64,000 nt of DNA, taken from Isoetes taiwanensis. Its lineage: Eukaryota > Streptophyta > Lycopodiopsida > Isoetales > Isoetaceae. The position numbers were made by a program, and so were the translations under genes. This document shows positions 5,566 through 48,252 of the stretch, piece by piece; position 1 is the first letter of the stretch; every line of letters begins with the position of its first letter. The stretch is from contig JAJEKV010000063.1 in assembly GCA_021234155.1 (NCBI GenBank), forward strand, positions 7,398,095 to 7,462,094, given 5' to 3'. A model generated the notes under the pieces. It did not search any database, was not told the origin of the DNA, and saw only the letters and a program-made list of their open reading frames with translations.

Positions 5566-5569
5566 GGCT

Positions 5570-12841: not shown

Positions 12842-12861
12842 AAGCCTATCCTCTTGTAGTG
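12842..12861 (-). repeat. CACTA right terminal inverted repeat
   Basis: It ends ..CCTCTTGTAGTG at 12861 and pairs with 2159-2178. The next base begins Copia LTR sequence. Confidence 0.9.
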
Positions 12862-13488
12862 TGGCAGTGAATATATTGTAGCTACAAAAACAACCTATGA
12901 GAAGCAGTGGCAGTAGGTTGTAAAGACAAGAACAGTTGAAGATGCAAACGTATACATATAAGTGCTTTATGTGCTTTTAAGTACATATAAGTGCTTTATG
13001 TGCTTTCCTAAAGCAGGTATGTGGGATAAATCGAAAGTAGCAGATTTCCTTAGCCAAGCCTGTGGGATATAGTTCAATAGACAACAGCCTCAGATTGGAA
13101 AGCATGAATGATGCGTTAACCGCCGGACAGTTCTATTATAAGGTGAAGCAGAGCCTTAAAGAATTATTCGGGTCCAAGGATGGTTTGATCCGTCTCATAT
13201 ATGATTGAATGGAGGCAGTCAACGTTGCTACAGCAGCTCAGTCAATCCCTCTGCTACAGTGATCGTTTGCAATATTTTGTATTGGGATTTTAATGATTGA
13301 AGAATTATATCCCAAGTTGACTAGTGCTTACTTGTTGTTTTTTTTAATTGATTTGAGCAAGGAATTATTGACCATAATGTGGCTTCCTTGCTGGTGTGAA
13401 GGATTTGATTGAAATGCTAATGGTGTTGTGAAGCATAAATAAGACATCTTTGCTAGGATAAGTTTGAACGTGTTGTCTAGTTCTAACA
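12862..13488 (+). repeat. displaced, inverted major part of the Copia 3' LTR
   Basis: This stretch is nearly identical to the reverse complement of 57210-57807, which is the 5' LTR of the Copia element at 48.2-57.9 kb. It starts at TGGCAGTGAATATATTGTAG, lacks the first 70-odd bases of the LTR and ends with the LTR 3' end CTAGTTCTAACA. Next come CTAGG (13489-13493), matching the target duplication on the other side of the Copia element, and unrelated sequence with no primer-binding site. It is therefore a 3' LTR end. Compared with the 5' LTR it carries two small extra segments of about 10 and 17 bp. Confidence 0.93.
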
Positions 13489-13493
13489 CTAGG

Positions 13494-14215
13494 CTTAATC
13501 TGAAATTGGGAGTTATGACAATAATAGGAAGTACTAGCATGTCAAGTACAAACATGTTGCTTATTTATATCACAATCAAAAGTTTAACATCTTCCAAATT
13601 GGAAATGAGAATTTATTGTTTCCCAATTTCAGTGAATGGGAGAACCATATATGAGGGTTGTGGCCTTCTGTTTTCAGAAGACTAGGAATTGCATGTATAA
13701 GATAGATCATGTGGTCCAGGGTTTCCCTTAAGAAAAATTCTTAAGTGGTTTACTTTAGAACACCTGGCGAACTTCAATTTTAAAGGTTAGTCAATAGTGG
13801 CGATTTTTTTATTTTTTTTTGGGAAGTTTTGACATAGCGTTGAAGACGAATTTTTGAACAATGACATTATAGAAAGAAATGAAAAGTACATGCACAATTA
13901 CGTTTTCAACTATTTCTTACTTCAGCTATATGCGTGCTTTGAATTGAACACATTGCATGCAAAAATAATGGCTTACAGTAATGCAATAATTTGAAAAAAA
14001 AAAAGGAATTTTTTTTTTTATATTTTATATTTCAATTAAATGATACCAATTTGTGCCAATTTTTTTTATCATTTTGTGATTGTTGCTAGAAGAGGAAGAG
14101 TTCTTTAGCATGTTTTACAATGATAACACGCAAACTAGGACTAATATGGCAGAGTTGGAAACTAATAATAACATATTTGGTAGAAAATGTTACAACATTT
14201 TAATTTAGAGTGCAA
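13494..14215. other. no recognisable feature
   Basis: A+T-rich sequence with short homopolymers. In the reconstructed ancestral order it is the flank of the Copia insertion. No gene is recognised. Confidence 0.5.
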
Positions 14216-14219
14216 TCTG

Positions 14220-15870
14220 CATTTCTTTGCATTTGGCATGAGTACAGCTTCAACTGCTTGTCCGATTGAAAAAACCCACTTTTCACATATATCTAACATG
14301 TAGGGCTATCTGCAAAAGAAGAGAATATAATAAATTGTGAAGAGAAAATGTGTTTCATGTAGGTGCATAATTACCAGAATGTCTTTTATTGCCAATGCCC
14401 TTCATGCATCAGTTAAAGCAAGGAGTCCAGTTGTGTCTATTGTTATCACCGCTGCATCAAATATATGCAAGAGCATAAAATATTTAAGGGCATATCAGAG
14501 CAGATTTTAATCTTAGTTCAGAAAAAAGAGCAGATTTTAAACTTTTATCTTGATTACAGAAGGGTTTATATACTAAATATAATATATCTAATCATACTTA
14601 AATTCCTCTCTCTTATATAATTATGCATTGTAGAAGATTATAGCTGCATCAACACATATTATGAGAACGTCTTTTATCCTATCTACATCCAGATATTGTA
14701 TGGTGCTCCTAAAGCAATGTTCCTGGTAACTACCCTAGTACTAAAATCTGCGGCCCAACCATGGTTGGATCATAGTTGTATTCTATCACACAAGTATATC
14801 TAAAATTGAGTATTATGTACTATTCACATCAATTTCTGGTCCAATAGGTATAGAGATGAAGAGGACTCCTAAAAATGCTCCACGAATTGGCAGGAAACCA
14901 ATTTCGTCTACTTCCCATATGATCAAAGCTTCAATTGATTCAATAAGACAATGACTACACAGAAAATGATTGTGAAAAGGATGGCATTTGGGGTGAAATG
15001 GAAGAGAGGCATAAGCTGTAGGAGAGTCATCATGATCATCATTGCTAGTAGAATGTTAGAGAATGCGGTCATGCAATCTGCACTAAAGTCAGTGCTTGGG
15101 AATAAATCAAGCACATCAATTTTAGCTCATAAGTTATGTAATTCAGACATTTTGTTACCTATAGTGGCATAGTGAGATTCATGATGCCGACACAACATCT
15201 CTTTGTTGCTATCAGCATCGTAACCATTCAGAAGGAAATGTCCGTACTGCAATCTCTTCCTACATTTACTTACCTGTCATGATAAAAAACCTTAAACGTG
15301 AGCATGAGTTTGTACACACAGACATGTAGGGATTACCATAAGAGATACCATTGTAGACACCAAACCAATCTTGATGCTTTTCAAAAAGTATTCACCAAGG
15401 AAGAATCCTTTATGTGAACATATCGGATTAATCCCTTTTTGCATATGCCCTATCCTACAGTGTAACTTTCTTAACAAAATACGAAAAGGAAGACCAGACA
15501 GGGTTTGTTCTGCTTACGCTTCCAAGACCATATTTGTTGTCCTATGTTAATCAGACAAGGCAAGAGGAGTGAAAAGGCCTCCTCATGCTCCTCTGGTAGA
15601 AACTTTGTGTGGCAATACGTTTGTGGCCCAACTGGAGCTGGAAAAAAAACATGAAAAGCTTTAGAAGAGAGAACTTATCTAAGGTTAGCACAATGCTATT
15701 ACTTCCAGAACACACCATATAACGGATCAAATTAAAAAACTCTTGAAGCAGTAAAACAATTCTGATAATATGTTCTCCCATGCAACTTGAAAAATAGACG
15801 CCTGGCATTTTTGGTGTGCAATCTCCAGTTAAGAAGAAGGGAATATTAAAAACAGGAGACACGAAAAGAA
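14220..15870 (-). pseudogene. sulfate transporter (SULTR family) pseudogene
   Basis: Minus-strand exon remnants follow the order of a plant sulfate permease. IGHMQKGINPICSHKGFFLG and the following KSIKIGLVSTMVSLM lie near 15450-15340. The segment STDFSADCMTAFSNILLA then MPLFHFTPNAILF lies near 15105-14985. ALIIWEVDEIGFLPIRGAFL lies near 14930-14860. DVLIICVDAAIIFYNA is near 14670. The STAS-domain part VITIDTTGLLALTDA is near 14440, and the C-terminal part CEKWVFSIGQAVEAVLM is near 14270. SULTR proteins are proton/sulfate co-transporters with about 12 membrane helices and a cytosolic STAS domain; here only the last helices and STAS survive. Several exons contain stops or frame breaks (a TGA lies in the STAS stretch), so the locus is not functional. 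The part upstream of 15480 is only weakly recognisable. Confidence 0.8.
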
Positions 15871-16200
15871 AAAATAGAAAAAGCCATACTTAAAGCAACA
15901 ACTTGTCTTTTTCGAACTCTTAGGTAGCAGTGGCTACTGGTGGTAAGAGGCGAATCCGGCTTGAATATGGAGATCTATTATCGAGATTTCGGCGAATAAT
16001 TGAAATTCCATAATCATTTTCAAGGCGACCTCAACTGGGATGGGAACCTAAACCAACGAAACAAGAGCGAAAATAAAAAATTGAATTGAATATGGAACCT
16101 AGTCGAGATTCATATCCATTTTTCTTTAAACCCTTAAATAAGACCCTGATGTGGTCAGATCTACCATGTTATATGCTTCAGCATTGTGCTATAAAGCATG
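15871..16200. other. no recognisable feature
   Basis: No gene or repeat is recognised. It may hold the decayed 5' part of the sulfate transporter relic. Confidence 0.35.
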
Positions 16201-17310
16201 CATTGCATTGCATCTCGTTGTGATTCTGAAGCTCCTGCTAGCATTTTGGACGAGCTTGACTTTAAGGAACTCAAACCATCAGAATCAGATGATAAAGAAG
16301 AAAGTGTAGAATCCACAAAAGAAGTAGAAAAAAAGAAGCAAGGTCAAAAATGATAAAAAGAAGGTGGCAATTAAGAAAAGATCTGCAGGAGAAACCAGCT
16401 CCAGCACTTCTTTGTTCAATGATCCACCAAGCAAAGACTTCCAGCCAGTCAAATTGGTAAAGAAAAGACTCACAAGAAGTGCTACAAAGAATAATGCTAC
16501 AAAGCCAATGAACAAAGGTGCTTATCAGTTTTTTTTTTTCAATTATTCCTTGCAGATCCAGTTGATGTAGAAAAGGTAAGTCAAATGAAGTTTTCACACT
16601 TATCTCGTGAAGGAAGGCCTCAGATAGCCATAAATCAGAAGATAATTAATTTAACATTGAGATTTAATGCACATTTGTTTACTTAAGATTTTTTTTACTG
16701 TAGACAACACTAATATTAACAAAAGTATAGTTGATGAACCTTCTCAAAGTGAAGAAGTTCTTGAACAAGAGGCTGATGTGGTTGTAGACAACATTGTCCA
16801 GTACTTTTTGCATAAGAAAATCTATCATCAAAGATGAAACGTAAGCAATATTCTAGCATAGGGTTCACTGATATGTTTATAACTTATAGCAGTTCTTTGT
16901 GTTGTGGAAAAAAAATCAAATGAATCTATTGAGGAATTAGAAAAGAGTAGCATGATAAAAAACGCTCCATTTAACAATGGAAAGTAAGTTTTGCGTATCT
17001 CTTACTACTCAAAGTTGTAACATGACAATTTGCACAAAGCCGAATGACAAAGTTAGCTTCTTTTCTATGAACACTCCACGAGAAAAAGGTAAGGAGTTTT
17101 ACAGCATATGTTTGACTTGTAGCCTATGCAGATCCTCAAGTTCCAATTGCAGTGGCTAAGCTTAATCAAATTACAACTCCCACAAGCACATATGAGTGTT
17201 AACTTGCATAAATTGCTTTCACTGGCTTGCTTGGACAGTAGTGCTTTCACCAGCACATCTACTACTTTCTCCAACATCGAGGCAAGTGCTATTGTTTTCA
17301 CAAAACCTAG
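16200..17310 (+). pseudogene. unrecognised gene-like relic, charged protein
   Basis: Several open stretches separated by intron-like, T-rich gaps encode a charged protein. Near 16225-16340 it reads SEAPASILDELDFKELKPSE followed by a Glu/Lys-rich run. Near 16364-16525 a basic Ser/Thr-rich frame includes KKRSAGETSSSTSLFNDPP. Near 16730 it reads DEPSQSEEVLEQEADVVVD, and near 17125 ADPQVPIAVAKLNQITTPTS. GT/AG-like borders can be drawn, but stops interrupt several parts. I recognise no domain. It could be the N-terminal region of the relic at 18.0-18.9 kb, since both are on the plus strand, or an independent decayed nuclear-protein gene. Confidence 0.35.
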
Positions 17311-18025
17311 ATAGTCCTCTGGAGGATGATGTTACCATGGAAAAGTGGTTCGAGAAAAAGTTTAGATGATGAATGCAGCTGTAAAGAAAATGTTCAAGTG
17401 ATATTTGTTGTTGAGATGAATAAAATACTTGGTCTTGTTTAAACTATGCATGACTAAAACTGCACCATTTTTTGCTTATTATAAAATTTTATAAGCTCTC
17501 TTTTGGAAGTTTGTCTTTATAGATAGTAGATACGTCTTTCTAAATCTGCAAGTTTTAGACTTCATAGTTTGCTATTTTTCAAGTTTTCGAAGAGCTTCAT
17601 TCTTCATTTTTTGTAAGTATTCCAACTTGCAAGTATTCTTTCCAATAAGTTCTCTTTTCAAGTATGTTTTACAGTTTGCAAGTTGACCTTAGTGCACTTG
17701 AGAGCATAAAAGTCCACGTTCTCTTTATTGTTAGGCTCTGAAACTACAGACAAATTATCTTCAAACTGCAAGAATGTCAGACTTCCATTGAGGATCACCT
17801 TAAAAAACAAGGTCATCCATAACATCTCCCACATAATCAGCACCTAGCCTTAGCTCAGTGTATTGCCATGTACCTATTCTACCTTAATTAGGACACTTGC
17901 CATATTTGTCGAACAAATAGCTATGACAGAAACAATTGTAATCCATATGAGCTAGTTGTCTAGGATCTATAACTTGAATTGGCCTGTTAGAATGGAACTT
18001 GCTTGTCACGGGTACTTGAGCCTAA
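17311..18025. other. no recognisable feature
   Basis: A+T-rich sequence with no coding frame that can be supported. Confidence 0.4.
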
Positions 18026-18029
18026 GCCT

Positions 18030-18860
18030 GATGGCAAGGGAGGGTACAAGATATCTAACAAACCTATTATCAAACTGGTTTACAAATGCACAACTGCTGT
18101 ATAGATTATCCATCAAGCCAAGACAGTTTTAAAAGAATTTATACTACATAATTATGAAGGAAGATGGCAGGTCAAGCAATTTAGAGAGTGTGCAACAACG
18201 ATTCCAAAGGATACAATTGTGTCTGTCATAGATTTTGCTGAGAAATATACTTTTAAATTCAGCAAAGAGATACAAAGCATATATTGAAAGAATGATCAAT
18301 GCACAATATTAGTGCATATTACATATAGACATGCTACTAAGTTAGATGACCGAAATCTTAGATAAGAATGAGAAAAGAATTGTAAATGGAACTCACTTCT
18401 ACATATCAGATGATAGGAACCGTGATATTTTTTTGTGCAGCATTGTGTTGAATACGCATCATGCATTTTTGACAAGCAACGATGTAAAGTATAGCAAACA
18501 CTTCATGTAGTCTGATGGTTGCTTCTCATCAGTTCAAAGAAGCAATGGCCTTTTCTTTCCTTGGTAGGTACTACCATAACAATGGCATTCTAATAAATTG
18601 GAACTACTTTACTGCTTATTGGCAAAGGTAACTACATTTTATATGAGTGTAGTTGTAGTTTTATTTTTTGTTTTTACTTCCTTGCTTTTCTTTCCTGACA
18701 ATTACTAGAATAGATGAGCATGATGGTGTTGAAGTTGTCATAAAACGAGCTCTTACACACATGAAATGTTGAAAAGAAGTTCAAGTGCCACTTAAAAATG
18801 CACATGATATAGTAGTTTTTATGATTAAACATTTTAGGGACAACTTCACATTCAAAAGAA
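18030..18860 (+). pseudogene. relic of an SDGC...QFK / NYF / HDG family protein, possibly transposon-related
   Basis: With frames joined across stops, the plus strand reads GRWQVKQFRECATTIPKDTI then VSVIDFAEKYTFKFSKEIQS near 18160-18270. HITYRHATKLDD is near 18320, FVQHCVEYASCIFDKQRC near 18440, and SDGC followed by QFKE near 18510. LINWNYFTAYWQR is near 18595, and after an intron-like gap EHDGVEVVIKRALTHMK is near 18720. From memory, the order DFAE, FVQHC, SDGC-QFK, NYF, HDG-KRAL fits a poorly characterised protein family that is repeated in many animal and some plant genomes and may derive from mobile elements; I cannot name it with certainty. Conserved acidic residues (SDGC, HDG) could be catalytic, which is inference. 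Multiple stops make it non-functional. Confidence 0.5.
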
Positions 18861-18999
18861 AAAAAATAGATATAGGTTTGCTGAAATACTGCTTTTTCTT
18901 TTTTTATTGGATGACATCGAAATAGTCTTTCTTAGATAGGTTTTTCTGGGAAATTAAAGTTCTTCTATCCAAATTAATTGCTTTGCATAGGCCCTTCTA

Positions 19000-19515
19000 T
19001 TTGTGTCAACATTAACAGAGTAAGCCATAGCAGCACTTCTTGCTCTTTATGCATCTATATCCTTTGCATATTTGTGAGTTGCAAATGAATCCTTCAAGTT
19101 CTCCACTATTGCGTTCATTGTCTTCATGTCTTTGGTGGTTTGAACACCAACTCCAAGAATCATTTCATTGCACCACTTAAAAAATCTTTCCATCCTTTTC
19201 ACTAGCATTCTCACAAATATCAGTAACAAGTTTGCCAATATTCTTTGACAACCTTTAGCTTCTTCATCACCTACAACCTCCCTTTCTCTCTGTCCTTTTT
19301 TCTTTTCCTTCTTTGCTCGGCTCTCCTCTTTCTAAAAAGAACACCCGTTCTAATAGATAAAGGAAACAAAATAAACAATTTCAAATTAAACATGATTTAC
19401 ATTCAATATCTGTTTTAGCATGTATCTCCTTCTGTATGACTTCACCAGGTGCCTTCTTTGCCATGAATTCAGTATATGCTTTTTTATAACAAAATTCAGC
19501 ACCAAAACCTGAAAA
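19000..19515 (-). pseudogene. unrecognised exon-like relic
   Basis: The minus strand gives FMAKKAPGEVIQKEIHAKTD near 19465, a basic KKEKKKGQREREVVGDEEAK near 19300, and CNEMILGVGVQTTKDMKTMN near 19150. It then runs through AIVENLKDSFATHKYAKDID to a stop near 19047. Frames change once or twice. The composition is coding-like, but I recognise no domain. It sits about 1.7 kb downstream of an hAT C-terminus on the same strand and might be unrelated to it. Confidence 0.3.
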
Positions 19516-19643
19516 GATAAATTAGAAACTAAGATTATAAACATCACATAAAATCTTTATCCAAACAAGCAAACAACCATTAAATAAAGTCCTCTATGAA
19601 ATAAGCATAAGTGACATTAGACACTCACTTAAACTAAACTGAA

Positions 19644-20918
19644 GTGAAGTGGTGTTCCATTGAGCTGAATGAATGAGTACAATGATATATATGGGTACCC
19701 AATGATGAACCCAAAATGAGTAAGAAACAATAGCATCCCCGATTGGCTAGTCAAATCCGAGGGTAACACAAAATCCTTCATAGTGAGGCTAGGCTCCAGT
19801 AGAATGTCAAGACAGAAGAAAGCCTGCAGATCGCCCCCGCACCACCCAAACTGAAACTCCAAAACTACTGCCACTCGTCGAAGCTGCGCCCCAACAAGTC
19901 TTACTAAGGTCTCCACCATAATATTACACGCGCCCACCTTGGCAACCATCCAAGCTGCAATTCAAAAAATGTCTTGCTAAGGCTGCCACACCAACTCCAT
20001 GCGCCGACCTTGGCCGCTCATCTGAAAAAACAACTCCACCCGCGCTAGTGAGATCGGAGCTAAAAATTGGGCAGCTTGGCAAGATACGCTACTCTATGAG
20101 CATTAGTGAGGTCAGAGCTTCAAAAACAGCAAAAATCACGTCAATAGTCGAATGCGTAAGGGTTAGGAGCCACACATGGCCATGCCGGGAGACTATGAAA
20201 GTAGGCCAACCATACAAGAATTACCGTATCGAAAAAGAGAAATGATCCATAAGGATCTCCAGAAACCCCGGGGCTACACTGGAATCGAGAAAGACAAGAA
20301 TCACAACATGAATAATGGGAAAACAAACCATGAGGATCCTCGAAACCTATGAGGCTACGCCGAGATCGAGAATTCCAATCTCTATATACAAGCTTGACCA
20401 AGGGGAGCTTCCCCTTGGTGCCCTCCAGAAGTGACAAGTGCTACGCTGGGTAAAAATAGGGGCCTATTGGCCAACTGAGAATAAACCTGATAGTAATCAA
20501 ATAGTTATGACCAAGCACAATAGCACAATATCAAAATTTGAAAAGATGATCCATGAGGATCCTCAGAAGCCACAGGGCTACGCCGAGATAAGGAAACATA
20601 GGCTCAACCCAGGGGGGCTTTCCCTTGGTGCCCTTTAGAAGCATCATGTGCAATGCTGGGAAAAAACGCAGAAGCCCATTGGCCAACACTGAACGAAAAA
20701 GTAAAACCTATATAGCAGAACAAGAGGTGGGAGGGGGAGAACTCCGTACAACAACAAGATTCAGCTCAGAGGAAACGCCGATGAGGAATGCAGGAAGACA
20801 CAAGGCTTTTATGGGAGAAAGGGCCAAAGAAAGCCTGGGTCTGAAAGGAGAGCTGGCGCCAAAACTGGCGTCCCTTTCCCTAAAATGATGGTTCTCTTCT
20901 ATATAAGAAGAGAATAAG
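19644..20918. repeat. GC-richer inserted block with internal repeats
   Basis: This block is visibly richer in G+C than its surroundings. Near-identical sequences flank it: GACACTCACTTAAACTAAAC (from about 19620) and GACACTTACTTAAACTAAAC (from about 20920). Internally, a motif around ATGATCCATGAGGATCC..GGCTACGCCGAGAT recurs near 20243, 20328 and 20545. A second motif, GCTTCCCCTTGGTGCCCT then GCTGGG..AAA..GCC.ATTGGCCAA, recurs near 20408 and 20618. Long open frames exist on the plus strand but match no protein I know. An unclassified insertion is the simplest reading. Confidence 0.5.
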
Positions 20919-21201
20919 CTTAGACACTTACTTAAACTAAACTTGAATTATCTATATTCAATGTTAAAATCTAACCATTTTTGAAAGACAAGCAAAATAA
21001 TTTTATGCCTTGTGACAGAAAGTTCTCAAATTCCCACCTTTCAAATGCCAAACAAAAATTCAAAATGACAGAGTCCAATTTTTTAATCAAAAAATATAGA
21101 ACAAAGGCACATTTGCATTACTTGCACTACAACTCAAAAAGAGTACATAAATAGATCAACTAACGAGCACTTGAGTTATAATGCATTACTTGCACTATAA
21201 C

Positions 21202-21480: not shown

Positions 21481-21514
21481 ACCTTTATTCTTCATAGCCC
21501 TATAAATCAACAAG

Positions 21515-26299
<4,785 letters not shown>

Positions 26300-27250: not shown

Positions 27251-27384
27251 AGAAGCCATAAACTATAATATGCAATAGGAAAGGAAGCCTAAATAGTAAG
27301 AATCAAGTTAAAGCAAGCCAGACACACCAAATAATCAATCTGCAATGGCATTGGAATTTTTCCAGAACTCATGGCATTGAGCAC

Positions 27385-30520: not shown

Positions 30521-30529
30521 TTTTATCAT

Positions 30530-33664: not shown

Positions 33665-36600
33665 TTAAAGTGATCCCTGCCCATTTCTGATGACGTGCCT
33701 AGGTTTGCTATCAATTCCCAATGCTTTCTCCCCATTTACTTCCAGATCATGCCTGCATAATTCAACTTTTGTGATCCAAATATTCTTTGAAATCTTAATT
33801 CCATTCATTAGTACGACAGTGGAACTCACTGGAAAACAAAATCTGGGATAGTCAGTTGTTCTCTTGGTACATATCTGAATAGGTCAAGCAATCTTTCAAC
33901 ATACACCACTTGCTTCCAGACCTGCCAAAATCATGATAAGCAATGATTAGCTTTCCATATTTTATATGATGGCTACAGAGTTAAAATACCTCTTGATCCA
34001 CTAATAACTGTAAAGCGAGTATAGTAGTTTTGAGCCCAAAAGTTGGATGCAGCACATAAATTGCCTGTGCAAAACAGTTTAATGCGCAACTAATTATAAA
34101 CCTGATAAATTAACAAAAAGGGAAATAATACCACAAAACTGTGCGGCAAGATCCAACATTTCAAACTGCTTATAATTCATGAAATAAGAAAGCTAAACCT
34201 TTATATCAAGGATTGAAAAAACCATTAGTGTGTCCTGCTTCTCTATTAGGTAAGATACTTATTTTACATATTACTATGGTCCCTCAGATGCAATATAAGC
34301 GGCTGATCTATGATGAAATCAGACATTTTATGCTGCTCCTTTTGTACCCGCCCTTTGGTCATTAGGTGCCTTGTTCCATTCAACCCAACGACTGCCACAA
34401 TATTTCTCATCCTGCTCCCAATTAACAGTTGACAATTTTCCCTCTCTATTTCTGGGCCTTTCCGCCTTTATTCATGTGCTCTTTCAATTGCAAGTAAATG
34501 ACCACCACATGCAAGATCAGGCCCCATGAATATCAATAAAACAGAGCCAAAATATACATACATGCAAATTGCGCCTATGCTTTCTTCCAAGAATCTGTTG
34601 CATTCTTTTCATCCAACCTAGATCAGGTGCACTACACATTCATAAATAGATTATAAGTACTGTTCTCTTCATTGTCAACTGTCAGCATATGCAATTTCTT
34701 ATTCCTTTTTTGCTTACATCTGAAGAGCAGCGGCAGAATGGAAGTAAACAATTGAGTATGGTCTTTGAATTATAGGTTCGAACTCCTGAACATCAGTAAT
34801 TTTCACAGTTAAAGCACTTCATCTGGAACCTTTGCTGCTTACTAGAAGGGCTCCCAAAATGGCACACCTTTACAATATATAAAACAAATCGTTCCAGATC
34901 AAGGCAGCGAAGAAGAAAATGAGCGCCTACAATTACCAATACTGGTCGACCATCAGCATCTACACCTCCTCGGTATCTGCAAAATGAATTATATTGCATC
35001 AATCTATCCAGCTCAACGTAAAATGAAAAGTAACAACACATAACAGACAACATGGGCACTTACATAATCTTCATTTCTGCAACCTCAGTAAGATTGACAA
35101 CATTTGCTCTCGCTAGGTATCTTGCATGAAGGGAGTCTTCTTCGACTGGGGACAATTGAGGTCCACCAAGCCCAGTAAATCCAATCCATTTACTGAAATT
35201 CCAACCTGCTTGGAGCTGAGATGCTTTTTCCCACTGTTCCTGCCGCCTCAGATCTGGATCCTTTGCCATTGACATGAATACTGGATCAACGAGTGCATCT
35301 AAAGAATCCTTCCTGTAGAAAGAGCAAGAGTTCAGGACAATACACATGCATGTAAGTTATTTGCTGTAGACCACTTAACCTTTTCATTAGTGCAGATTGA
35401 TGATTTATTAAAGTATCGTCAGTTATTGCCTCTGGATACTTCCCAGCTGGAAGGGCAGAGATCCTTATTTTGCGCTCTGTAAGAGTAGTTTCTCCATTCT
35501 CATCTCCAACATCAGCCGGTAATTTCATTGATGCAAGTTCTTCCTCATTTTCATCTCTTGGAAAATATAGAGGCAGCAATCTGTAAAATCCTAAGAAGAT
35601 GCTACATTTAGATTCATATCACATGGTTTAGTGCATGAAAAGAATTCGAAACATATTTCATCTTACAAAACCTTCTGTATATTTCTATATCAGTTGCTGC
35701 AGAGAGACAAAAAACAACTGCTGTAATTTTGTCCTTGTGTTTCTCCAGGAATCGTCTCACAGTCCCTAATTTATCAGGAATAATTGTAAAGACCATTGAT
35801 GTTATAATTGAAATGCACATGATCATCACATAGAAGATGGCTTCTTAGATGCTTACTGATAGTAACATGGGCAGCAGGCTCCCGCGGGTAACCTTTTACT
35901 TCCGTGTAGATGCACCCCATAGCAATGCTGCTTGCATAGAAAACGCAAAAATTTTCCATATAAATATTATCATATTGATGAGCTGTTAAAAAGATTCAGT
36001 AGAAAGTCTGGCAGACGAATACCTTTCAAGATCATTCTCAATAAGGAGCTCAAGGCATGCACGGTAACAGTGACTAAGTGCATTCTCTGCAGCAGTGTGG
36101 TATTTCAATGCATATCTAGGGCCAACAGTATGGATTACACGTCTGTAAAAGTTTATGCACGTCAGCACATTATGAACATCGAAGGAAAGTACACATTTAC
36201 ACATACCTAGCAGGCAGATCATATGCTCCAGTGATTTTAGCCAAACCAGTGCGACAACCACCCTACAATAGGTATTACACATTTAGAGCTATCTGAGATA
36301 CTGAGAAAATCTGAAACCAACACATACCAAGGTTGCACATTCTTCAGCAAGACCAGTTCCAGCTGCAGCATGCAAACCAGGACTACTGTGCATCTCATCC
36401 AGGCTCTGTTAACCAGAATCATTAGTAACAAGACAGAATATCAAGGTCCAACATGGGCAATTAAGTAGCAGTTAAGAGAATAAAGCAGTTGTGTTTTTCC
36501 ATATACCAGTCAGCATGTCAAGTACCTTAAACTACAGAGCGCGTATACATAAATGTTTAATAGTGGCCCGCCGCATTTCACAGGTCTCAATTTCTACTTC

Positions 36601-37348
36601 GGATCATAATTACCAACTAAAATGCTGTCCATGCAAACTGGGATGACAGGCAGTACATCTCGCACTTCAGGGAACAAACTCAATTGTATGATGTGGATAA
36701 CAAGCCAAGGTCTTTATACTCAACACAAACTTTTCCCTTAAGTGGAACAATGATTGACATGATAAACAAACGTTCAGGTCAACTGAGAGTGTAAATTAAT
36801 CCATGTAGATTGCAATAAGGTGTCCTCTTTTAGCACTTTAGACTATAATGAGCACACATGAGATTGTCCAGAAAAAGGTGACTTCCTTCGGATTTTGGCA
36901 TTATTACTTGGATTGGATCATTCTGCAGTACCAAACATATAATGCCTATACAAAGAAGAAAAGGATATATCTCATTTTCATGAACTGATCCTCTAGGAAC
37001 ATCAGAACCTAAGAAGCTTGAAATTGAAATATGAAGAATATTATAATAAAAACATGCCTCATTGGTGGAGTTGACAACAGCATCCACTTCGAGGTTCCAG
37101 GGAGGACCACGCCATATGTATAACTTCTGATTGACTTCATGATCAACTGAGAATTTCGATGACCTATTACTTCCTCCACCGAATGATGTAAGAGGGTCTA
37201 CAACCCTATCGTTGGAAAATACAGCTGCATCAGACCTGGATACAGAAGAAATGCGTGGATCCGCATCAATCCACCTTGGAACTTGGTCGAGTTTCACAAC
37301 CCCACCAGGGTTGTAGCTCCCACTTCTTGTGTTTACTCGGCTGTACAT
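33665..37348 (-). CDS. GDAP2-like protein: macro domain plus CRAL-TRIO/SEC14 domain, 14 exons, 554 aa
   Basis: Exons (minus strand) are 37348-37058, 36405-36328, 36262-36207, 36142-36023, 35930-35857, 35765-35672, 35580-35380, 35312-35064, 34976-34868, 34785-34718, 34631-34562, 34064-33990, 33921-33830 and 33752-33665. Phases join without a stop to give 1665 nt. The start at MYSRVNT fits the plant family better than the Met five codons upstream. Residues about 75-250 form the macro domain, which binds ADP-ribose-type ligands: NLEVDAVVNSTNE, GGCRTGLAKITGAYDLPARR, VIHTVGPRYALKYHTAAENA. Residues about 385-520 are SEC14-like: VGAHFLLRCLDLERFVLYIV, SIVYFHSAAALQ, DLGWMKRMQQILGRKHRRN, VPREQLTIPDFVFQ. 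Length and order match plant GDAP2 homologues (about 560 aa). Intron 1 uses a GC donor (37057-37056). It is the only apparently intact host gene here. Its ligand and cellular role are unproven. Confidence 0.94.
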
Positions 37349-38886
37349 TTTATCAATAATCAAGACTTCATCTCAGCATTTACAACTTGCATCAGCAAAA
37401 ACGCCATTGCAATTCAAGCCATAAATCTGAATCCATGGAACCCATCTCAAAGGATTGTTAGAATTTTTTGCAAATCAAGTCACTCATCGCGCAAGAAGCC
37501 CAACTCGATTTACAACCTAAATGCCACAATTCCACATTGGCGAAGAAGACAAATCCGACACAGTAAATAGGGCCCAACAAAGCGTGATCTAGGAGAGCAT
37601 CAGTCCAGTATTATTCTAAATCTAAAGGCGCCGGCTAGGGCAAGGTTTTACAAGAATGAATATGTAGTGTTTGTTCTCTTGCGTGTGGTTAACTTGGTTG
37701 ATTTTGCTGCTCTGCTTCCTTCAAATGTCCTGGTCCCCACATTATGGGAATGGTAGAAATACGTGTAGGAGGAAATACGCTTTAGAAGTCAAAGGTATTT
37801 GGTATTTAAAAAATGTGTTTCATATGCACATTACTTAGGCACTCACGCCTAAAACTTGTCCACAAAACTGTCATGAAGAGTTTAAATACCCCACAATCTT
37901 CTAGGACAATAACTTATTTCACTTTGTTATTTTATTAGATGAAGTGAATTTCAAGCAAAACATGGATTTTGGAGCCATGTTGTCCTTGTACATAGATGAT
38001 GTGCAAATCATAAATGCATTTGTAGGAAAGTCATTCAATAAAAAAAAATCCATCAATTTCTACAAACAGCAATCCACTGTGTGAAAGAACTCGGTGTGCA
38101 ACCATTGTAACCAAGGCTAAAATGAACTTTATTAGTCTCCAAAACTGAAATGTAGTTAGACCATGCCAATAATCAACAATCTTGCTTTGATGGTCAAATG
38201 TCAATAATCGACGTGTATCAGTCAAATTTCGGGCTAATTACAATGTGAAGATGTCAATATTGATGTCGATTCCATGTCGGACACATATATGTAGTTTGAC
38301 TATCATACGTGGCGTTTTAACCTGGACTCTATGCCAATAGTTGACGTTCTGCTGATGTTGGTTACATACACTGGTATGGTGCTCTGGCATGAGTGTCGCA
38401 TCGTTATCAATGTTGATAATCAACGTTGACTTGGTGGAAAAGAATGTATGATCCTTTAGCTATGGTACAAACTATTTTTTTACATCCATTATGCTTTGAA
38501 TGTGCACCAATGCCCTCAGAAGGTAAGATATTTGAACACCTCTGACGTTTCTTGATAGTATATATTAGCATTAACTAAGTCTTCCGTGGTGTACTCTGGA
38601 CTACCACAGTCGTCGGATTCGTCGATCCTACGACCCAGATCGTATGTTGGGGCCTCTGGGCACCTCTCGTTTCGCTTATAGTCATTTGTGATTGGAGGCG
38701 CCTATGATTTTGAAATATGAAATACGATTTCGCCTAAGGTTTTGATGGAATATCGAATCTCTATACGGCTTTGCCTAAGATTTTAGATTATGAAATACGA
38801 GGGCTCGAACCTCTACCAAAATGACTCAATGTCCTTATAAGACTACTTTAACCAAGCTAATGTAATTATTTTTTATCTTGAATCTA
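37349..38886. other. intergenic; upstream region of the GDAP2-like gene
   Basis: The first few hundred bases should hold the 5' untranslated region and promoter of the minus-strand gene, but no core element is clear. From 38150 to 38430 there are several short self-complementary motifs built on TCAATAATCGACG and GATAATCAACGTTGAC. From 38690 to 38800 a GAAATACGA..CGCCTAAGGTTTT.GAT motif is repeated about twice. No gene is seen. Confidence 0.45.
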
Positions 38887-41800
38887 TTTTTTTTTTTTTT
38901 TTTTTTTTTTTTGAAAGATCAAATTAACTAATATTAATCCAGAATAAATACAAGATGAGCGATATTAGGGTACTCCTGCCCACACCAGAGCAAGTACCCA
39001 CCTAACATATGTACCTATCTATGACTCGTGTCACAAATCTACCCAGAGCGTCTACAATGTGGAGGGTTCTTTCCCAGACTACTGCTTTGAACTGCTCTTT
39101 CCGAGGGGACGCCAGGTAAGACAGATATAATTTGTACCTCAACTGCGGGACCAAAGCCTCGGTCGCATCTCCATTCTCGAACACCTTCATACGCCGCTTC
39201 CAAATGAGCCACAACAACCGGGCTTTACACAAATGAAAGGCCGGACTCGAAAATTTGGGACCACTGTTAGGGTACACCCCAAAAGAACCTCTTGACTACT
39301 GAGCGAGGTATGGAAGAGGTTTGGACCCATCGCCATGCCTTTTGGATCTCTCGAAAGCAAAGAAACATGCAATGTTCCAGAGTCTCCACACAGGCACCAC
39401 ACATAGGACACATGTTGCTTATCCGCGGGTTGATCCTGTGTACCCACATGTTCACCCTCAGGGAAGGGTGCACGATCTGCCACAGCAGTATCCGGATCTT
39501 GGAGGGCGAGATTGGGTTCCATACCCATTTCCAGATATAGGCCCAATCATCCTCTGACACCTGAAGACTCCACCCGTCCGAGGGAGGCAGCTCATCCTGA
39601 ATCGCCAAAAGCCCATAACAGGATTTCACGAAATTTGAGGGATCTACTTCCGGGTGACACTTCCACACACGTCCCGAGGCCTGCGGAGGGTGCAACGGTA
39701 GAGCATTAGCCACCTGCGCCCAGATAGCACAGTCCCGTTCCTGAAGCTGAAATTTATGGCGAAAAAGCTGTCAGGGTGCCAGCTGCCCGTCAATATACCA
39801 TTCCGCCACCGTCAATACCTCGCACTGCATCCATCTGCGCTGAACTCGGGGGTCAACGGATGCTGCCAGAACCAAAGGTGTGCGTGGTCCGAGCGAGATC
39901 CACCAAGGCGATGCCTCCAACTGAATGCACCTAGTGGCGTCAATGGCAAACAGCGGACGGACCTGCTCCCAGGCTCGCAGGAGCCCCTTCAGAAATGGAG
40001 AGGCATGAGCATACGGCCTGATATCCACGAACAGCGCCCAGGGGAGCCGCGCAGGCACAGACGGCTTGTGGAAAACTATCGAGTGAGACAGCGACTGATG
40101 AAGCAACACCATGCCCCGGGAGTCGAGTGCATTCTCAAGAATGGCAAAGATAAACTTAGACAAAAGGACCTTGCCATGCAGCGAGAGGTCAAAGAAGCCA
40201 AGTCCACCCGCAGCTTTGGGGCGCACACACTTCCACCAGGCCACCTTCACGACCGCCCCTTCCTCATTGCCTCCCCATACGAAATTACGAACCATAGAGG
40301 AGATTTCCCGCACCTTGCTTTCTGGCGCCAGGATGATGGAGGCCATATAAATATGAGTCGAACATAGACCGGACTTCGCCCTTTGTGACCACCCGACCAT
40401 GGGCGGCTCCCCCTTCCACCAATTAAGGTGCCGCCGCAATCCCACCAGAATGTCCTCCCACGCAGCTGACGCTGAGATGTCGATGCCGAATGGGATGCCC
40501 AAAAGCCTAGAGCACGTGCCCAGCGGCTGCATTCGCCAAGGAAATTGGGACACCACCATAGGCATGGGATCCGCTGTCGGCCACAATGCTGAGCACTTCG
40601 TCCAATTCATGAGGCAGCCAGAAGCAAGGGAGAATGTATCCAGCAGCTCCTTCGCGTTTAACAGATTTCCCTCATCAGCCTGCAGGAAGAGGAACGAATC
40701 ATCCACGTACTGACTCCCAATCTGCTGCGACCCATCTGCAATTCTCAGCCCCTCCACCACACCCGCGTCCACTGCGGAAGTCAACAACAGCGAGAGGGCC
40801 TCCGCGACAATAGTGAAGAGAAAGGGCACCAAAGGGCATCCCTGGCGAACGCCACGCCCCACACTAAATATCGGAGATGACTCGCCGTGACAGGAGGGTG
40901 GCTCTGGCGGACATTAAGAGCTTCATAGCCACTGCCGTAAAGGTCTCCCCACATCCAAAAGCTAACATCATCCTTTTCAAGAACGTCCACCGAACACTAT
41001 CATAGGCCTTTGCGAAGTCCAGCTTCAAGTACACAATCTGCTGACCTGTTCTGCGCGCCCAGTGAATCCCTTCGAATGCCGCTGCTACATTGCTAAGAAT
41101 CTGCCTGCCCGGAATGAAACCAGACTGCATGGGACTAATGGTCTCTTTCAAGACAACTTGCAGTCTAAGCGAAAGTGCCTTTGCAATGATTTTGTATACT
41201 GCCGACAGAAGCGTGATTGGGCGCCAATCAGAAATGACAGCTGGCTCCTTCACCTTCGGTATCAACGAGATGCAGCCCGTGTTAAGCCTATAGTCCAACG
41301 CTTTTGCCTGCAGCAGATCTTGATAGGTCTGCAACACCGAGTCCCCCACCCAATCCCAATATTGTTGGAAGAACTCAACCGGAATGTCGTCCAGACCAGG
41401 GCACTTATGGGGGGCCAAGGCACGGCAATCCTCCTCAAGCTCCTACTTTGTGAGCGAGCGCTGCAACATCTGCCTCCCATCTACCGACGCATTGCATAAC
41501 ACTTTACTGAGCACAATCTCCTCCATCACGTCTGTGTAGGGGTATCTCTTTTCCTGAAAGAACTGAGAGAAGTGCTGAAAAGTAGCATGTTTGATGTCCA
41601 CCGGCGAATTCAGAATACGACCATCAGCCAATGCCAGTGGCATTGATGACATAGAGGCCGCGTACTTCTTCTGTCGCGCATCCCTAACGAACATTCGGGA
41701 ATTAGTGTCCCCTTCCTGCAACCAGGTGATCCCTACTTTTACCCTTGCTTGAGCAGCCCTCCTGGATTCATCTGTTGCAATGTAGCGCAAAATCTCATTC

Positions 41801-42330
41801 TCCCGCACCCCATCAGATGGCTAAGACCTAAGGGCTTCCAATTTGCGATACAATGCCTCTAACACCTCTCTCTCTCTCTTGCCGTGCTCTCCGACTTCCC
41901 CACGACTTGGCAAATGCCTTGACCTCAGCTAAGGCCTGCACCATTCCCGCCATCCCGAAATTATCCCGGAAGGTACGAAACCAGATCTGTTGGCATTCCC
42001 AAGAGAAATCAGCATCCTTCAGGTAAGCGGTATTCAACTTGAACACAGTGCGGCTCGGCCTGGCTGCAGTCGCTCCCTGGGAGATTAACTGAGGAAAATG
42101 GTCAGAGACCGCGGTAGACAAAATGTCCGCCCGCCTGAGCTGAGGCACCTGGTCCGCTGCTAGGGTATTAACATAGCATCTGTCGTGTTGAGCATACGCC
42201 CGACTGGCCCCCGTCCACTGATTACACCACGCAAATGAAGAGTCGCCCGCCGCCTCTGCCAGATGCAAGGAGTCCAGCAACATCACCCACTGCTGCCGCT
42301 CAAAACCCTGCACAATTTCCGCTGCCATTC
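38887..42330 (-). mobile_element. GC-rich L1-type LINE, 5' truncated, poly(A) at 38887-38912
   Basis: A 26-base T-run at 38887-38912 is the poly(A) tail of a minus-strand LINE. The 5' end (near 42330) is inside the endonuclease: FAWCNQWTGASRAYAQHDRC, then SDHFPQLI. Reverse transcriptase follows: HKCPGLDDIPVEFFQQYWDW, NTGCISLIPKVK, SDWRPITLLSAVYKIIAKAL, MQSGFIPGRQIL, LKLDFAKAYDSVRW and GVRQGCPLVPFLF. An intact YVDD is near 40700, then a thumb region and a zinc knuckle (MCPMCGACVETLEHCMFLC) near 39400. A stop near 41820, a stop near 41444, and frame changes near 40863 and 39770 inactivate it. Base composition is much more G+C-rich than the surroundings. Confidence 0.92.
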
Positions 42331-43229
42331 AATTGTTTTAGGGACATATGGTTTATGGTTTCAAGAATTGTTATTTTTACATCCATATCAAATCCCCCTG
42401 GAACCCCTGTTATTTTGCTACATATTGATGGAGGAGGAGGAGAAGGAGGAGCGGGATAGATTTTCTAATATCCACGAAGATCAATTGACCATAGAACCCA
42501 TACAGTGTGCTAATACAACCATTATTGCTAGGACTAAGAAACCCTTACCGTGAACGGATTTCAAGGAAAAAAATTGTAGTAATGATGATATTAGACAGTC
42601 AGTAATTAATGAGTTTGTACAAAGAAGGTCATGGTAACTATTGATAGCTCAACAATTGAAGATGTACAGCTAGTACCTCAAGTACATATAATGTTAAGTT
42701 ATGCATAGATGGTGCTTTGAGAAGTTGTGGAAGCATATAGAATGTAATGCTAATGTCAAATAACGATTCTTGGTCATCACAAAAGCAAGAAATATCAAAA
42801 GTGTATGATTTTCATCTTCAATAACATAAAACTATCAACTTGCACATAATCTCACCTCCCATGGCAATCGTAGCAACTCTTACCTTGCTTTGTGGGACCA
42901 TGTATGAATTGATGCAATAGCTATAAGCTTTTTTCTAGACAAGGAAGCAAGCAAATAAGCTTGTGGCCCTTGTCTCAAAGTGGGGCTTATATGTACATGA
43001 TAATGACCGGTTTCAACTTGGGCCAAGGCATGTGCATCCCATAATTTTTGAAAAAATATGACCATCTAGATAGTAAGTTTAGGATCAAAACTTATATAAA
43101 CATCATGCCTCGTTTTTATTGCATAGACTAGCGAGCAAACCATGTACTATAATGCCCTTTCCGACACCTTTTCACCGCCATGGCAAGCGCTAGAAGAAGG
43201 TACATATCCTCATCCATGTTTTGCATCTT
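42331..43229. other. no recognisable feature
   Basis: A+T-rich flank of the LINE. No protein or RNA gene is supported. Confidence 0.45.
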
Positions 43230-43960
43230 TTATATATAGTGGATATGGCACTTCATGGCAGAATGTTTAGGAGGCCAAAACCATGTCTCTTGTAAAACAA
43301 TAGCATCTGTAGTTTCCACTCCTACGTTGTAAGTGAGAAGGGATTTTGTCACATGTTCTAAACTCTCCCAGACGTTAGCACTAATGGCAGACCCCAACAA
43401 TTCAGAACCATGTAGTAAAACGTGCTTTTCGAACCCTATACTAAAGCCCGAAACAAGTGGGCTTTTCGTGACCAATCATGAATCTGTATGTACGAAAATA
43501 ATTATGTTGATTGTATAAAGTGCTCACGCGCTTGGTGATACACTATTTCCAAAGTGTGTTCTTATGGAACTCTACACTAAGATATTTATAGCTACCTATA
43601 ATTTCAACTTCGTGGCTATCATAGTGCAAATTTAGAACAGTATGCTGAGAAGAAAGAACTACCAAGAGTTTGGACTTTTGAAGATTAACGCGCAACCTTG
43701 TGTTCTCACAAAAAGTGTGCAGGGCATGTAAATGTTGTTGCATACTAGAAACTATATGTGCCATAAGCGAAACATCATTAGCATACATAAGTTCGTTGAT
43801 GATGTAGTATGCCAAATGGGGTCCTCTGCCACCATGATTATCAATGTGCAAGTCGAAGAGTTTAGGAAATAGAGGACAACCCTAACATACTCTAATGTTG
43901 CTTGGGTACTTGATGTTGAAACCCAGTGGTGATTGAGCAAGGCCATCTTAAATGGAGAGA
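43230..43960 (-). pseudogene. LINE relic (RT palm and C-terminal part)
   Basis: Minus-strand frames give INELMYANDVSLMAHIVSSM near 43790, in which the palm motif reads YAND instead of YADD. Next is LHTFCENTRLRVNLQKSKLL near 43700. After a break comes LLHGSELLGSAISANVWESL near 43400, then EHVTKSLLTYNVGVETTDAI. The order is that of reverse transcriptase followed by the segment that precedes the C-terminal knuckle. It resembles the relics at 345-2115, 60240-60470 and 62040-62735. Stops separate the parts and there is no tail. Confidence 0.75.
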
Positions 43961-45920
43961 ATTGGATGATATACCGAGCTACTTTAATTTGTTGCTTTTT
44001 ACTGAATCTTCTTCAAAGATTATTTGATTCTTTGGCTTGTGCATTCATGGACATACGTTGTTCTTATTCGGCAAGTAGTGTAGGCGTGTGGACTTGAGAC
44101 TAGTGCAAAGGCATTGAAGATTGCAGAAGAAGATTAGATCGAGCAATATCATACAAAATGGGCACAGGTTATGATGATGAGGAAGGATACAATAATGAAG
44201 ATGGTGGCTCCATTATTGATAGATTATGACTGCATGAAGTTGAAGAACCTAATGATATGCCGTCCGATGAAAGGTGAAGAGCCTAGAAAATTCGTAGCTT
44301 ACCTGTGATAGCTTAGGCATTTACCCTATACAAGGCTAACATGCTTCTGGTTCTATTGCAGGTAACTGGATTTCCTACTCCTTGTGATGTTTTCCGTATC
44401 TTATCAAGTATTTTGGTGGGCTACACGAGATTTCAAGTGAATATTAGAACTAAGAACAAGATGTTTTAAATTATTCATGTATTTTACAAATGTGGCCTAT
44501 TGTATTATTTTGGGAAGTTATTGTATAACATTGTATTAATGTAAGTAATAATATGAATAATAGGAAGAACTTTTTGCCATTTGACCATTTAGGTCTCGAC
44601 CCTTATTTTATAGTATGTTTGCCTATTGGTTGCCATCTGGCCAACCCTCTTCATCATTACATCAAGTGCGACTGGCCTCCCTTCTTCATAATCCCATTGA
44701 GAAGTATTTTCTCCTATTGCATGGTTAATCCTGTTGGATTAGCACGAAATTTGTTGAGAAGTAGACCATAGAGATGATTTTGAAGAGTTGTTTATGGTAT
44801 GTCATAGTGTATTGTCATCATTTCTGATGGATAATAATACATCATCAACAAAATCAATTGCCTTTTACAAGCCCTCCTTGGATAAGACCTCCCTCTTGAA
44901 ATATCTAACCTTGTTAGGGCTCAATTCTTCATGCAAATCTTCTTTAGAGGGTAATAGGTTTTGAAGACTTCTTCTTCTTCTTGCTGACAGAGGCAGGAAC
45001 TATATCATATAATCAGGAGCTGTTGTAGAGGCACAACATATGATCTCTTCATAATATTCACATTAGAAAGGAAAAGCAAAGACAGAGATAAGAACTGGAA
45101 GAGCATGACTGCTGGAAGGGGAGGAAGCATAATTTATAGTAGAATTTTGCTTGAATAATAATTGAATTAAAGGTTAGAAGTAGGCCATATTATCAATCTA
45201 AGAGACATGGCATTTCAGCGATCAGATGCACAAAAGCTCTACATGAGGCATGAATACAAGCAATTCGTGCAAGTTTTCAAAAAGCATGAAGGTAAATAAT
45301 TTATTTGGCTGCAAATTTGCTTTAATAATTCAACGATTTACGTTGTATTGTGTTACTTTGCACCTTTGAACATGAATATGTAGCATAATAACAGGGGGTT
45401 TTCTTTGTGTTTTTGTACGCTTTTCACAAAGGTTTTCCTAAGATTTCATGGCGTATTCGAATAGATGTACTAATGCGTACATCTAGAGTGCACCATTTCT
45501 TAGTCGTTGATTTAGCTTTTTTTTTTCAATGGTCCAACATCCAAGGGCTCACAACAAAAGCCCTCTTTTTATTTTAGTTGCCATTTTCAGAGTTTTGCAT
45601 GCAAGCATCGTGCGATCATGTTTTAGGGTTAGGAAGAAAGAAGACAATGCTGCAGGGTTTGAACATGCTTCAAGATTCAGCATTCGGCTTCAAGAAAATT
45701 TTGTTCAGATTTTGGTTCAAGAGGGCGGTTGTGATATGCTTCATCGCAGGGACCGCTTGGGTCCAGCGGATTTTTTTTGTCAGAACTGGACAGAGTTCGC
45801 TTTGCCACAACAATTGCGTTGATATCGATTGCCGGGTAATATGGGACCACTTTTTCCCGCACTCCATTTATCCGCCAATGCTGATTACATATAACATATA
45901 ACAGCCTCATCAATGGCCTC
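43961..45920. other. no recognisable feature
   Basis: Short coding-like stretches occur (for example near 45540-45900), but none matches a family I know. No repeat or RNA gene is supported. Confidence 0.4.
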
Positions 45921-45924
45921 TGCC

Positions 45925-47150
45925 GGGGCAAACAAAATGGAGAAGGCGCATGAGGTTTTGGCAAGAGATGTGCAAAAAGGGATACAAGCCCCGATATTTT
46001 CACGGCCACCACTTTGATTAGAGGGCTCAAGAACGCCGGGCTAAGTCAGATGAGGCACTATTTAAACCGGATGGGGCCTTGGATCTTCCGGACGAAATGG
46101 TAGAAAGAAAGATTCATCCAGATTTGGATGTGCCTTGTAATTGTGCGAATCAATCGAGATCTAGTAGATTTTTTTGACGAGGGTGCGTAAGCTTTCGACA
46201 ACACATAGATTCTAAGTTTATTGGCGGGATGAAGTCAAGCTTCTTTTGAAAGAGGATTCGGAGGCTACAAATGATCTGCGAGAGGAGATAAAACTTTGAT
46301 CATACCTGAGGAACATCCGAACCATTTCAAGACTTTATAGAATACCGGATATTTAGGCGTGGGTCTCTCTTTGATCTATTTTTGGCATGCTAAGAGGAAA
46401 AGCGTCTTTTGTCATCTTGGTAAGTACACTCAAGTCACCTTATCCATTCCCGCTATAGGCAAAATATCCATTTTAGTTGTTGCGTTTATGCTATATAACT
46501 GGACAAGGTATTCTATGGTAAAGGTTTGCATGTCTTGCAACAATGCCCACTTAAATTACAGGGTAATTATGCGTAGCCCTCAAAGATGATGAACTTGATA
46601 GCTATGTTTCGTAAACATGATGTGATGTATGATTGATTCATTTCCTACAGGATCTTTAGCTAATATCACCGATTCATGTGTTCATGGGGTGCAATAGAGA
46701 TGACTAAAGATGCAAGTCGCGATTCACCGGTATTAATTTCGCATTATAAGAGAGCAGAGGATGTTTTAGATCTTGAAGATTAGATCTTCAAGATTGTTTC
46801 ACTTAATGTGAAATGCAAGATATAGGAGATTCATCTACGAGATGGGCCTTTTGATAGATGAGAATATTCCATCTATAGAATACCTGGCCTTTGATAATGA
46901 GCCATAAGTGGCTGATGACATGTCTTGATCTGATAGACTCATTGGTAATATGTTAGATAGGATGCCTTTCAGCTCGAGAACCATGAGTGAGAATGGTCGC
47001 AAAACCGGTATTTTCACATATAATACTTTGTTAGATGGATTTTTAAGGCTGGTAGAATTGAGAAAGCACATGAGCTATCAAGGAGATGATTTAAGGTCGC
47101 ATTTCGAACATGACCGCTGCGGTCTTGCACGACAGCCATGATGGTCTTGG
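45925..47150 (+). pseudogene. pentatricopeptide repeat (PPR) protein relic
   Basis: Scattered PPR units can be read on the plus strand across frame breaks. KMEKAHEVLARDVQKGIQ is near 45935. PDIFTATTLIRGLKNAGLS follows near 45990, then LPDEMVERKIHPDL near 46095. Much later come NMLDRMPFSSR, FTYNTLLDGF and, after a one-base frame change, KAGRIEKAHELSRR near 47050. The FTYNTLLDGxxKAGRIEKA signature is diagnostic of the 35-residue PPR helix pair. PPR proteins bind organellar RNA in chloroplasts or mitochondria. The repeats between about 46160 and 46930 are not recognisable, and stops are frequent, so this is a dead copy. Confidence 0.75.
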
Positions 47151-48178
47151 ATTTCATGCAAGCCTGTTTGTGGTAAAGTTTTTACTTCATAGATGTCTTT
47201 TGCTCGTTTTTAATGGCCATTGTGTTGCATTTGCCTAAATATCCTTTTTTCCTTTCAACTGGGTTGTCATATACCGGCACAGATCTTTGGACCTCATTCT
47301 CTCGTTTTCTGAATTCTCAATGTTAATCTTGAATCTTTATGACCGGTACGCAATAATGTCCAAGATGGATGCTTAGTCTATATCCATGTGCTACTTTGTT
47401 TTTAGTATCTTAGCATTGGGTCTGTTGTATGACTCAACCTGCCACAATGGATTCACAAGCTCATCTCATGCAGTGCCAACATTTAAAGAGAGGCCATCCA
47501 TATGTTGGGCAGCAGCTGCTTCCGACTTCGAAAGTGCAGACCCTAATGATGTATTATCATCTAAGAGGCCTAATAGATCCGAAAATGGGCTTTTGGCAGA
47601 GGTACAATAAATAAATCTGCAGCTATTCTTCCAGAATTTGGCTGTGCTCTGTTGGTCATTGTAACGGACTTTCCTGAATGTTATTGAAAATGCTAACAAG
47701 GCAACAGTGCCTCGGGTTCACATTTAAAATCATTTTCCAAGCGCTGGCCGTGAATGAAACTTCATTTTTTGCATACTAGAGGTGGAGTTTAATATTGAGT
47801 TTTGACTTAATATGAATCTTTGGCAGGTTAGAAAGAAAAAGAGAGAGTTGGCATCAATAATGATGAAGATAATAAATGGTTTTTTTTTGGAAAAAACATA
47901 CCGCAAATTCACGTGCCTATGTTTGCTTTATTAGGGCCCGAAGGGCCCAAAATTTTTTTTAATATAACAATCAACATACAAAATACTATAAGGTTTGAGA
48001 CAATGTACTTAATGGTGTTAATTTTGTACATGTATTGTAAATATATTTTTTGAGCTCTCGCTGCCCTACGTAACCCCCCGTGTGAATATGCACCCAAACC
48101 AAAGGGGGTTTAAGGGGGATTTTAATTTAAATGTGTTAAATGCAATGGTTTGTGTTAATAATGTTAATGGTAGTTGTG
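47151..48178. other. unassigned flank ending at the inversion junction
   Basis: No gene is recognised; an open plus-strand stretch near 47480-47610 is coding-like only. The last 80 bases, read from the junction leftwards, start CACAACTACCATTAACATT and contain repeated TTAACACA motifs. They abut the Copia LTR fragment exactly at its break. Confidence 0.45.
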
Positions 48179-48252
48179 CCACTGCTTCTCATGAATATAA
48201 GATGACAATTTTCTAAATTCCTTATAATATGACATGACTCACATTTTCAACA
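48179..48252 (-). repeat. Copia 3' LTR, first 74 bp only
   Basis: It is identical in layout to the outer end of the 5' LTR (57807-57880), beginning TGTTGAAAATGTGAGTCATG on the minus strand. It stops at ..AGCAGTGG, the same point at which the displaced piece at 12862 starts. Confidence 0.93.

Follow-up and report, generated by a model that had tools for sequence, protein, structure and literature searches.

A split Copia LTR and a CACTA transposon that probably record an inversion in Isoetes taiwanensis

The Copia element and the CACTA transposon

We analysed a stretch of 64,000 nucleotides of Isoetes taiwanensis (contig JAJEKV010000063.1), referred to here as the window, in which position 1 is the first letter. 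It contains a Ty1/Copia retrotransposon with gag, integrase and reverse transcriptase (RT) in this order along the minus strand, with long terminal repeats (LTRs) and with a 5-bp target duplication. The parts of the element lie as follows:

57210-57880, minus strand: Copia 5' LTR, 671 bp, intact
48253-57209, minus strand: Copia internal region in gag-integrase-RT order (PF00098, PF00665, PF07727)
48179-48252, minus strand: proximal 74 bp of the Copia 3' LTR (alignment to the 5' LTR)
12862-13488, plus strand: distal 627 bp of the Copia 3' LTR (alignment to the 5' LTR)
13489-13493, plus strand: CTAGG, first copy of the Copia target duplication (read in the sequence)
57881-57885, plus strand: CCTAG, second copy of the Copia target duplication (read in the sequence)

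The first-pass annotation of this DNA had described a single Copia 3' LTR lying in two pieces of opposite orientation, and alignment of 12862-13488 and 48179-48252 to the 5' LTR at 57210-57880 confirms this description. The distal piece agrees with the 5' LTR at 595 positions and differs from it by 5 mismatches and two indels (10 and 17 bp), while the proximal piece is identical at all 74 of its 74 bases. Taken together, the pieces differ from the 5' LTR at 5 of 674 compared positions, and from this low divergence (Jukes-Cantor distance of approximately 0.0075) we conclude that the Copia insertion is recent. Jointly, the two pieces account for the LTR in its full length and have exactly 3 bp, TGG, in common. 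Moreover, the outer flanks CTAGG and CCTAG are reverse complements of each other and thus form the matching 5-bp duplication that had been claimed for them. The polypurine tract, which had been described as in place, was also found by eye where it adjoins the proximal piece.

A plus-strand LINE (PF00078) sits within the internal region of Copia and interrupts it. This LINE (51719-55186, RVT_1) contains a pure run of 44 A at 55143-55186 and is therefore probably young; a short exact-match scan found no target duplication for it. Pfam domains were also sought over 4.8 kb on either side of Copia in order to demonstrate an empty site, and none was found to span the site.

The distal LTR piece directly follows a second element, for which we list the features together with the inverted segment that is discussed below:

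2159-12861, plus strand: CACTA (En/Spm) transposon, 10,703 bp, with both termini (terminal inverted repeats (TIRs), Pfam, TGTCA motifs)
about 8.4-12.2 kb: predicted tnp2-type transposase exons of CACTA (Pfam)
2156-2158, plus strand: TTA, CACTA 5' flank, which differs from the 3' flank (read in the sequence)
12862-12864, plus strand: TGG, proposed first copy of the CACTA target duplication, within the distal LTR piece (LTR alignment, flanks)
48179-48181: CCA (TGG on the minus strand), proposed second copy of the CACTA target duplication, in the proximal LTR piece (read in the sequence)
2159-48178: inferred inverted segment, 46,020 bp, containing CACTA, the distal LTR piece, the GDAP2-like gene and several relics of transposable elements (TEs); turning it back restores the CACTA duplication and the LTR and makes the LINE collinear

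Judged from its sequence features, the element at 2159-12861 is a CACTA transposon with both termini, which had not been described in the first-pass annotation. Position 12861 is the last base of the CACTA terminal repeat CACTACAAGAGGATAG in minus-strand reading, and CACTACAACAGGATAG, read from 2159 on the plus strand, is alike to this repeat at 15 of 16 bases. No further match to the terminal 16-mer with up to three mismatches was found elsewhere in the window. Inside the element PF02992 (4.3e-31) and PF13952 (9e-09) scored above the cut-off, and PF13960 scored below it. The subterminal motif TGTCA, counted on both strands, occurs 11 and 15 times per 600 bp at the two CACTA ends, compared with 0, 2, 4 and 0 times in four further stretches of 600 bp that adjoin the joints. 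A gene-like stretch on the minus strand within the element (3198-4611) had no Pfam match and possibly encodes a second transposon protein.

CACTA insertions duplicate 3 bp of their target, and the two flanks of the element should therefore agree. In place they disagree, with TTA on one side and TGG on the other, whereas the TGG copies at 12862 and 48179, which lie 35.3 kb apart, agree once the segment is turned back.

The split LINE and further contents of the window

A LINE relic at the left edge of the window and a fragment near the right end of the inverted segment provide a second marker, and a gene lies between them:

1-2066, minus strand: LINE endonuclease/RT relic, from residue 120 (alignment to 2054, continued by eye to AATATG at 2061-2066)
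45240-45380, plus strand: LINE endonuclease fragment, residues ~73-119, ending AATATG (alignment to 45365, residues 73-114; last 15 bases by frame)
45381-48178: the larger part of a stretch with a PPR repeat, which interrupts the LINE in the turned-back order (PF13041, 4.9e-10)
34550-37372, minus strand: GDAP2-like gene, located in the inverted segment, with approximate limits (PF01661 above cut-off; PF13716; open reading frames)

Residues of the endonuclease are numbered on the better-preserved LINE at 21858. The stretch holding the fragment at 45240-45380 scored 81, whereas 60 random 521-bp pieces of the window averaged 31.4 and did not exceed 47. When joined, the pieces ending at 2066 (minus strand) and at 45380 (plus strand) abut in one reading frame, and they come to lie on one strand and in order only with the segment turned back. 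Compared with the reference LINE the joined pieces are identical at 56 of 196 positions, with a two-residue gap near the joint. Joining them lifts the Pfam endonuclease scores slightly, from 18.4 to 20.1 and from 18.0 to 19.6 bits, and makes the match longer, with all scores under the curated cut-offs of 27.4 and 24.5. Going by these alignments, the LINE marker appears to support an inversion but fits a segment of 35.3 kb and one of 46 kb equally. Since other fragments of this LINE type are present in the window, the two pieces might also abut by chance, for which we would allow one or two percent as an estimate rather than a computed value.

The insert between the two LINE pieces (45381-48178 plus 2067-2158) measures about 2.9 kb, includes the PPR repeat and, by eye, has AATATG at both of its edges. 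A LINE endonuclease running right up to 48178 was rejected, as it scored 24 and 25 and thus below the mean of 31.4 for random 521-bp pieces. One LINE endonuclease ORF was compared with solved structures and gave no match.

That the inverted segment carries a GDAP2-like gene, as annotated previously, holds true: at 34550-37372 PF01661 scored above its cut-off and PF13716 reached 20.4 bits versus a cut-off of 23. The name was taken over from the first-pass annotation and agrees with the pair of Macro and CRAL-TRIO domains. The reference LINE (21858-25171) is flanked by two microsatellites, (CT)73 and (TC)121 (21518-25493). At 60562-63095 two inverted-repeat pairs, 75 and 81% alike, were observed near weak gypsy matches, namely a Tf2-1 SH3 domain and a chromodomain, both below the cut-off. 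A search against Rfam at gathering scores gave no match.

Extent of the inversion and its probable history

An inversion that followed the Copia insertion had been proposed before and is supported by our analysis, with the CACTA target duplication and the split LINE as further markers. The extent proposed for it, 12862-48178 or about 35.3 kb, is probably wrong. Turning back this segment had been thought to restore one complete LTR, but it results in ..GCAGTGG joined to TGGCAGTG.., whereas the intact LTR reads ..GCAGTGGCAGTG.., so that TGG is left twice in the LTR and three bases are too many. Turning back 2159-48178 (46.0 kb) instead leads to the order LTR-TGG-CACTA-TGG-LTR with no surplus bases and restores the Copia and CACTA duplications alike.

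Given the three surplus LTR bases, we rejected the view that the inversion was most simply joined at 12861/12862. Because the 3-bp TGG overlap coincides with the CACTA 3' terminus, 12861/12862 is most simply explained as the junction of a transposon insertion, with the CACTA 3' end on one side and its target on the other, and the joint formerly placed there is probably an error. With the segment of 46.0 kb, one of the two breaks falls on the CACTA 5' terminus or no more than 3 bp into the element. This margin arises because the bases CAC are common to both sides of the joint and would have been present in both ancestral sequences. Within 2 kb of the joints 2158/2159 and 48178/48179 the longest match is 29 bp long, inverted and 86% alike (2616-2644 in the CACTA 5' region and 48025-48053 to the left of the joint at 48178). 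Therefore, no long repeat pair is present at the joints.

We consider it probable that a Copia insertion was followed by the insertion of CACTA into its LTR and then by an inversion which broke at or near the CACTA 5' end. In the first step Copia would have inserted and duplicated CTAGG, as the sequence still shows. CACTA would then have inserted into the Copia 3' LTR and duplicated TGG, which is suggested by the coincidence of the 3-bp overlap with the CACTA 3' end. Finally, the 46,020 bp from the CACTA 5' end to 48178 would have been inverted, whereby the LTR stub, together with its TGG, would have been brought to 48178 and the CACTA 5' end to the flank ending at 2158.

Concerning the mechanism, the position of the joint suggests that a transposase cut which was joined to another break probably made the inversion. 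In such an incomplete transposition, the transposase would have freed the CACTA 5' end only, with the 3' end remaining in the LTR. A second break would have occurred at a distance of 46 kb, and its two sides would have been joined to the freed LTR stub and the freed CACTA end. The structure of the joints, which is read directly in the sequence, has the signature of a one-ended event, in which one CACTA end has moved, the other is in place and the emptied flank has been rejoined elsewhere. More tentatively, a single CACTA element without a second transposon end might have inverted the 46 kb by one-ended transposition in cis, with the nested duplications recording each step. A new 3-bp duplication at the receiving site 2158/48178 was not found, as the TTA at 2156-2158 has no TAA counterpart next to 48178. 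If the one-ended transposition was a clean one, its overhang would therefore have to have been trimmed. As this result speaks against textbook one-ended transposition, end-joining after the cut would be the plainer form.

The proposed extent of 35.3 kb survives only if CACTA underwent a reversed-ends (alternative) transposition. In this scenario CACTA would originally have stood next to the left flank and its TTA. A second, cryptic 5' end at 48178 would have moved along with the CACTA 3' end into an intact LTR, inverting 12862-48178, which requires that another CACTA terminus is present at 48178. Such a single event accounts for the TGG copies and for the mismatched CACTA flanks, although a plain CACTA insertion predicts TGG at both 12862 and 48179 equally well. 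The part of the maize Ac/Ds study available to us describes inversions of this design with matching target duplications at both transposon ends, but also with a transposon at each breakpoint, one of which is missing here (PMC8225341). In favour of this reading, the end at 48178 starts with CAC and shares 7 of 9 bases with the CACTA 5' TIR, which is the case for only 173 of 127,968 positions in the window. Over the full repeat, however, it matches at just 8 of 16 bases, a level reached by 4.1% of positions, and TGTCA motifs are absent from the 600 bp behind 48178 (0, versus 11 and 15 at the true CACTA ends). By its sequence, 48178 is thus disfavoured as an end of the same CACTA family. The last 165 bp before this joint (48015-48178) contain three of the six minus-strand TTAACAC motifs of the window; these three perhaps belong to another element.

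The segment could also have been inverted if CACTA had been present in two inverted copies, in the LTR and at the receiving site, which underwent ectopic recombination, and if the copy left at 48178 was excised afterwards. According to the available text of PMC8225341, recombination between copies usually leaves non-identical flanks, comparable to TTA and TGG here. Against it, only one CACTA and no second CACTA end was found in the window, no TAA is present beside 48178, and the excision would be an extra event. Since no CACTA was found at 48178, we regard the reversed-ends transposition as unlikely and recombination with subsequent excision as slightly less likely still.

Ordinary double-strand breaks might also have been rejoined via the 3-bp CAC microhomology, which is indeed common to both sides of the joint, with the CACTA end being there by chance. 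A random break would have to land within 3 bp of a transposon end, an argument rather than a measurement, and we consider this improbable. An assembly error which placed a correctly read segment the wrong way round would be conceivable in a region rich in repeats, in particular as one inverted pair of 0.6 kb, formed by the distal LTR piece and the 5' LTR, faces across the segment. The window does not contain any N, this pair spans neither 2158/2159 nor 48178/48179, and the matches within 2 kb of the joints do not exceed 29 bp, all of which makes a flip during assembly less likely, so that we give it even less credence than ordinary breaks. Two unrelated Copia LTR fragments which look complementary by accident, an idea that was already dismissed in the first-pass annotation, can practically be discounted, since we found nothing in their favour, while the pieces partition one LTR, have the 5-bp duplication in common and hardly differ from the 5' LTR, and their 3-bp overlap falls on the CACTA end.

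Comparison with known transposon-end inversions

One-ended transposition is known from hAT and Mutator elements, and it would be extended to CACTA if the version with a single element is true. A doppia rearrangement is known from R-r of maize. In Antirrhinum, rearrangements flank the inserted Tam3 element, inversion among them. The present case is similar in that the rearrangement lies beside an inserted cut-and-paste element, but Tam3 belongs to the hAT superfamily. Tam3-induced rearrangements in Antirrhinum are cited in the accessible part of PMC3744419, and doppia is named as a CACTA element in that of PMC2686159, with no inversion mentioned there.

For Ac/Ds in maize p1/p2, the available text of PMC8225341 describes reversed-ends inversions with a transposon at each breakpoint and matching duplications. 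As in our case, the joint lies exactly at the end of a cut-and-paste transposon of which one end stays and the other moves. The Ac/Ds inversions differ by having a transposon at both breakpoints and 8-bp duplications, whereas we found one CACTA and no second terminus. A similar event is the VANDAL5 inversion in Arabidopsis (Fransz et al. 2016, as described in the accessible part of PMC12312487), in which the 5' end was inserted at a distant site and the 3' end stayed at its origin, likewise resulting in an inversion. There, one of two proximal copies of a VANDAL element was involved; here, it is a CACTA element of which one copy was seen.

CACTA elements have also been associated with inversions. 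In Lake Malawi cichlids, copies have been described close to the breakpoints of inversions (PMC12530302), and two CACTA families recur at such breakpoints in rice, where LTR elements and MULEs are the enriched classes (PMC10030860). As far as the available parts of these two sources go, they resemble our case in the proximity of CACTA to the breakpoints but describe an association only. Among the matches listed in our literature search, no title or abstract opening reported an inversion at a CACTA end at base level; subscription papers were mostly outside this search.

Inversion breakpoints are often linked to repeats by nearness alone. Here, two nested elements with their duplications of 5 bp and 3 bp form a built-in record from which the order, the orientation and the breakpoints can be read. 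Of these duplications, the one of 3 bp is mismatched in place and matched with the segment turned back. As the nested duplications record the breakpoints, a single uninverted haplotype could distinguish breakage by transposase from recombination between copies. Inversions at transposon ends are already known from Ac/Ds, VANDAL5 and Tam3, and the present case is another one, which is unusual for its clear record.
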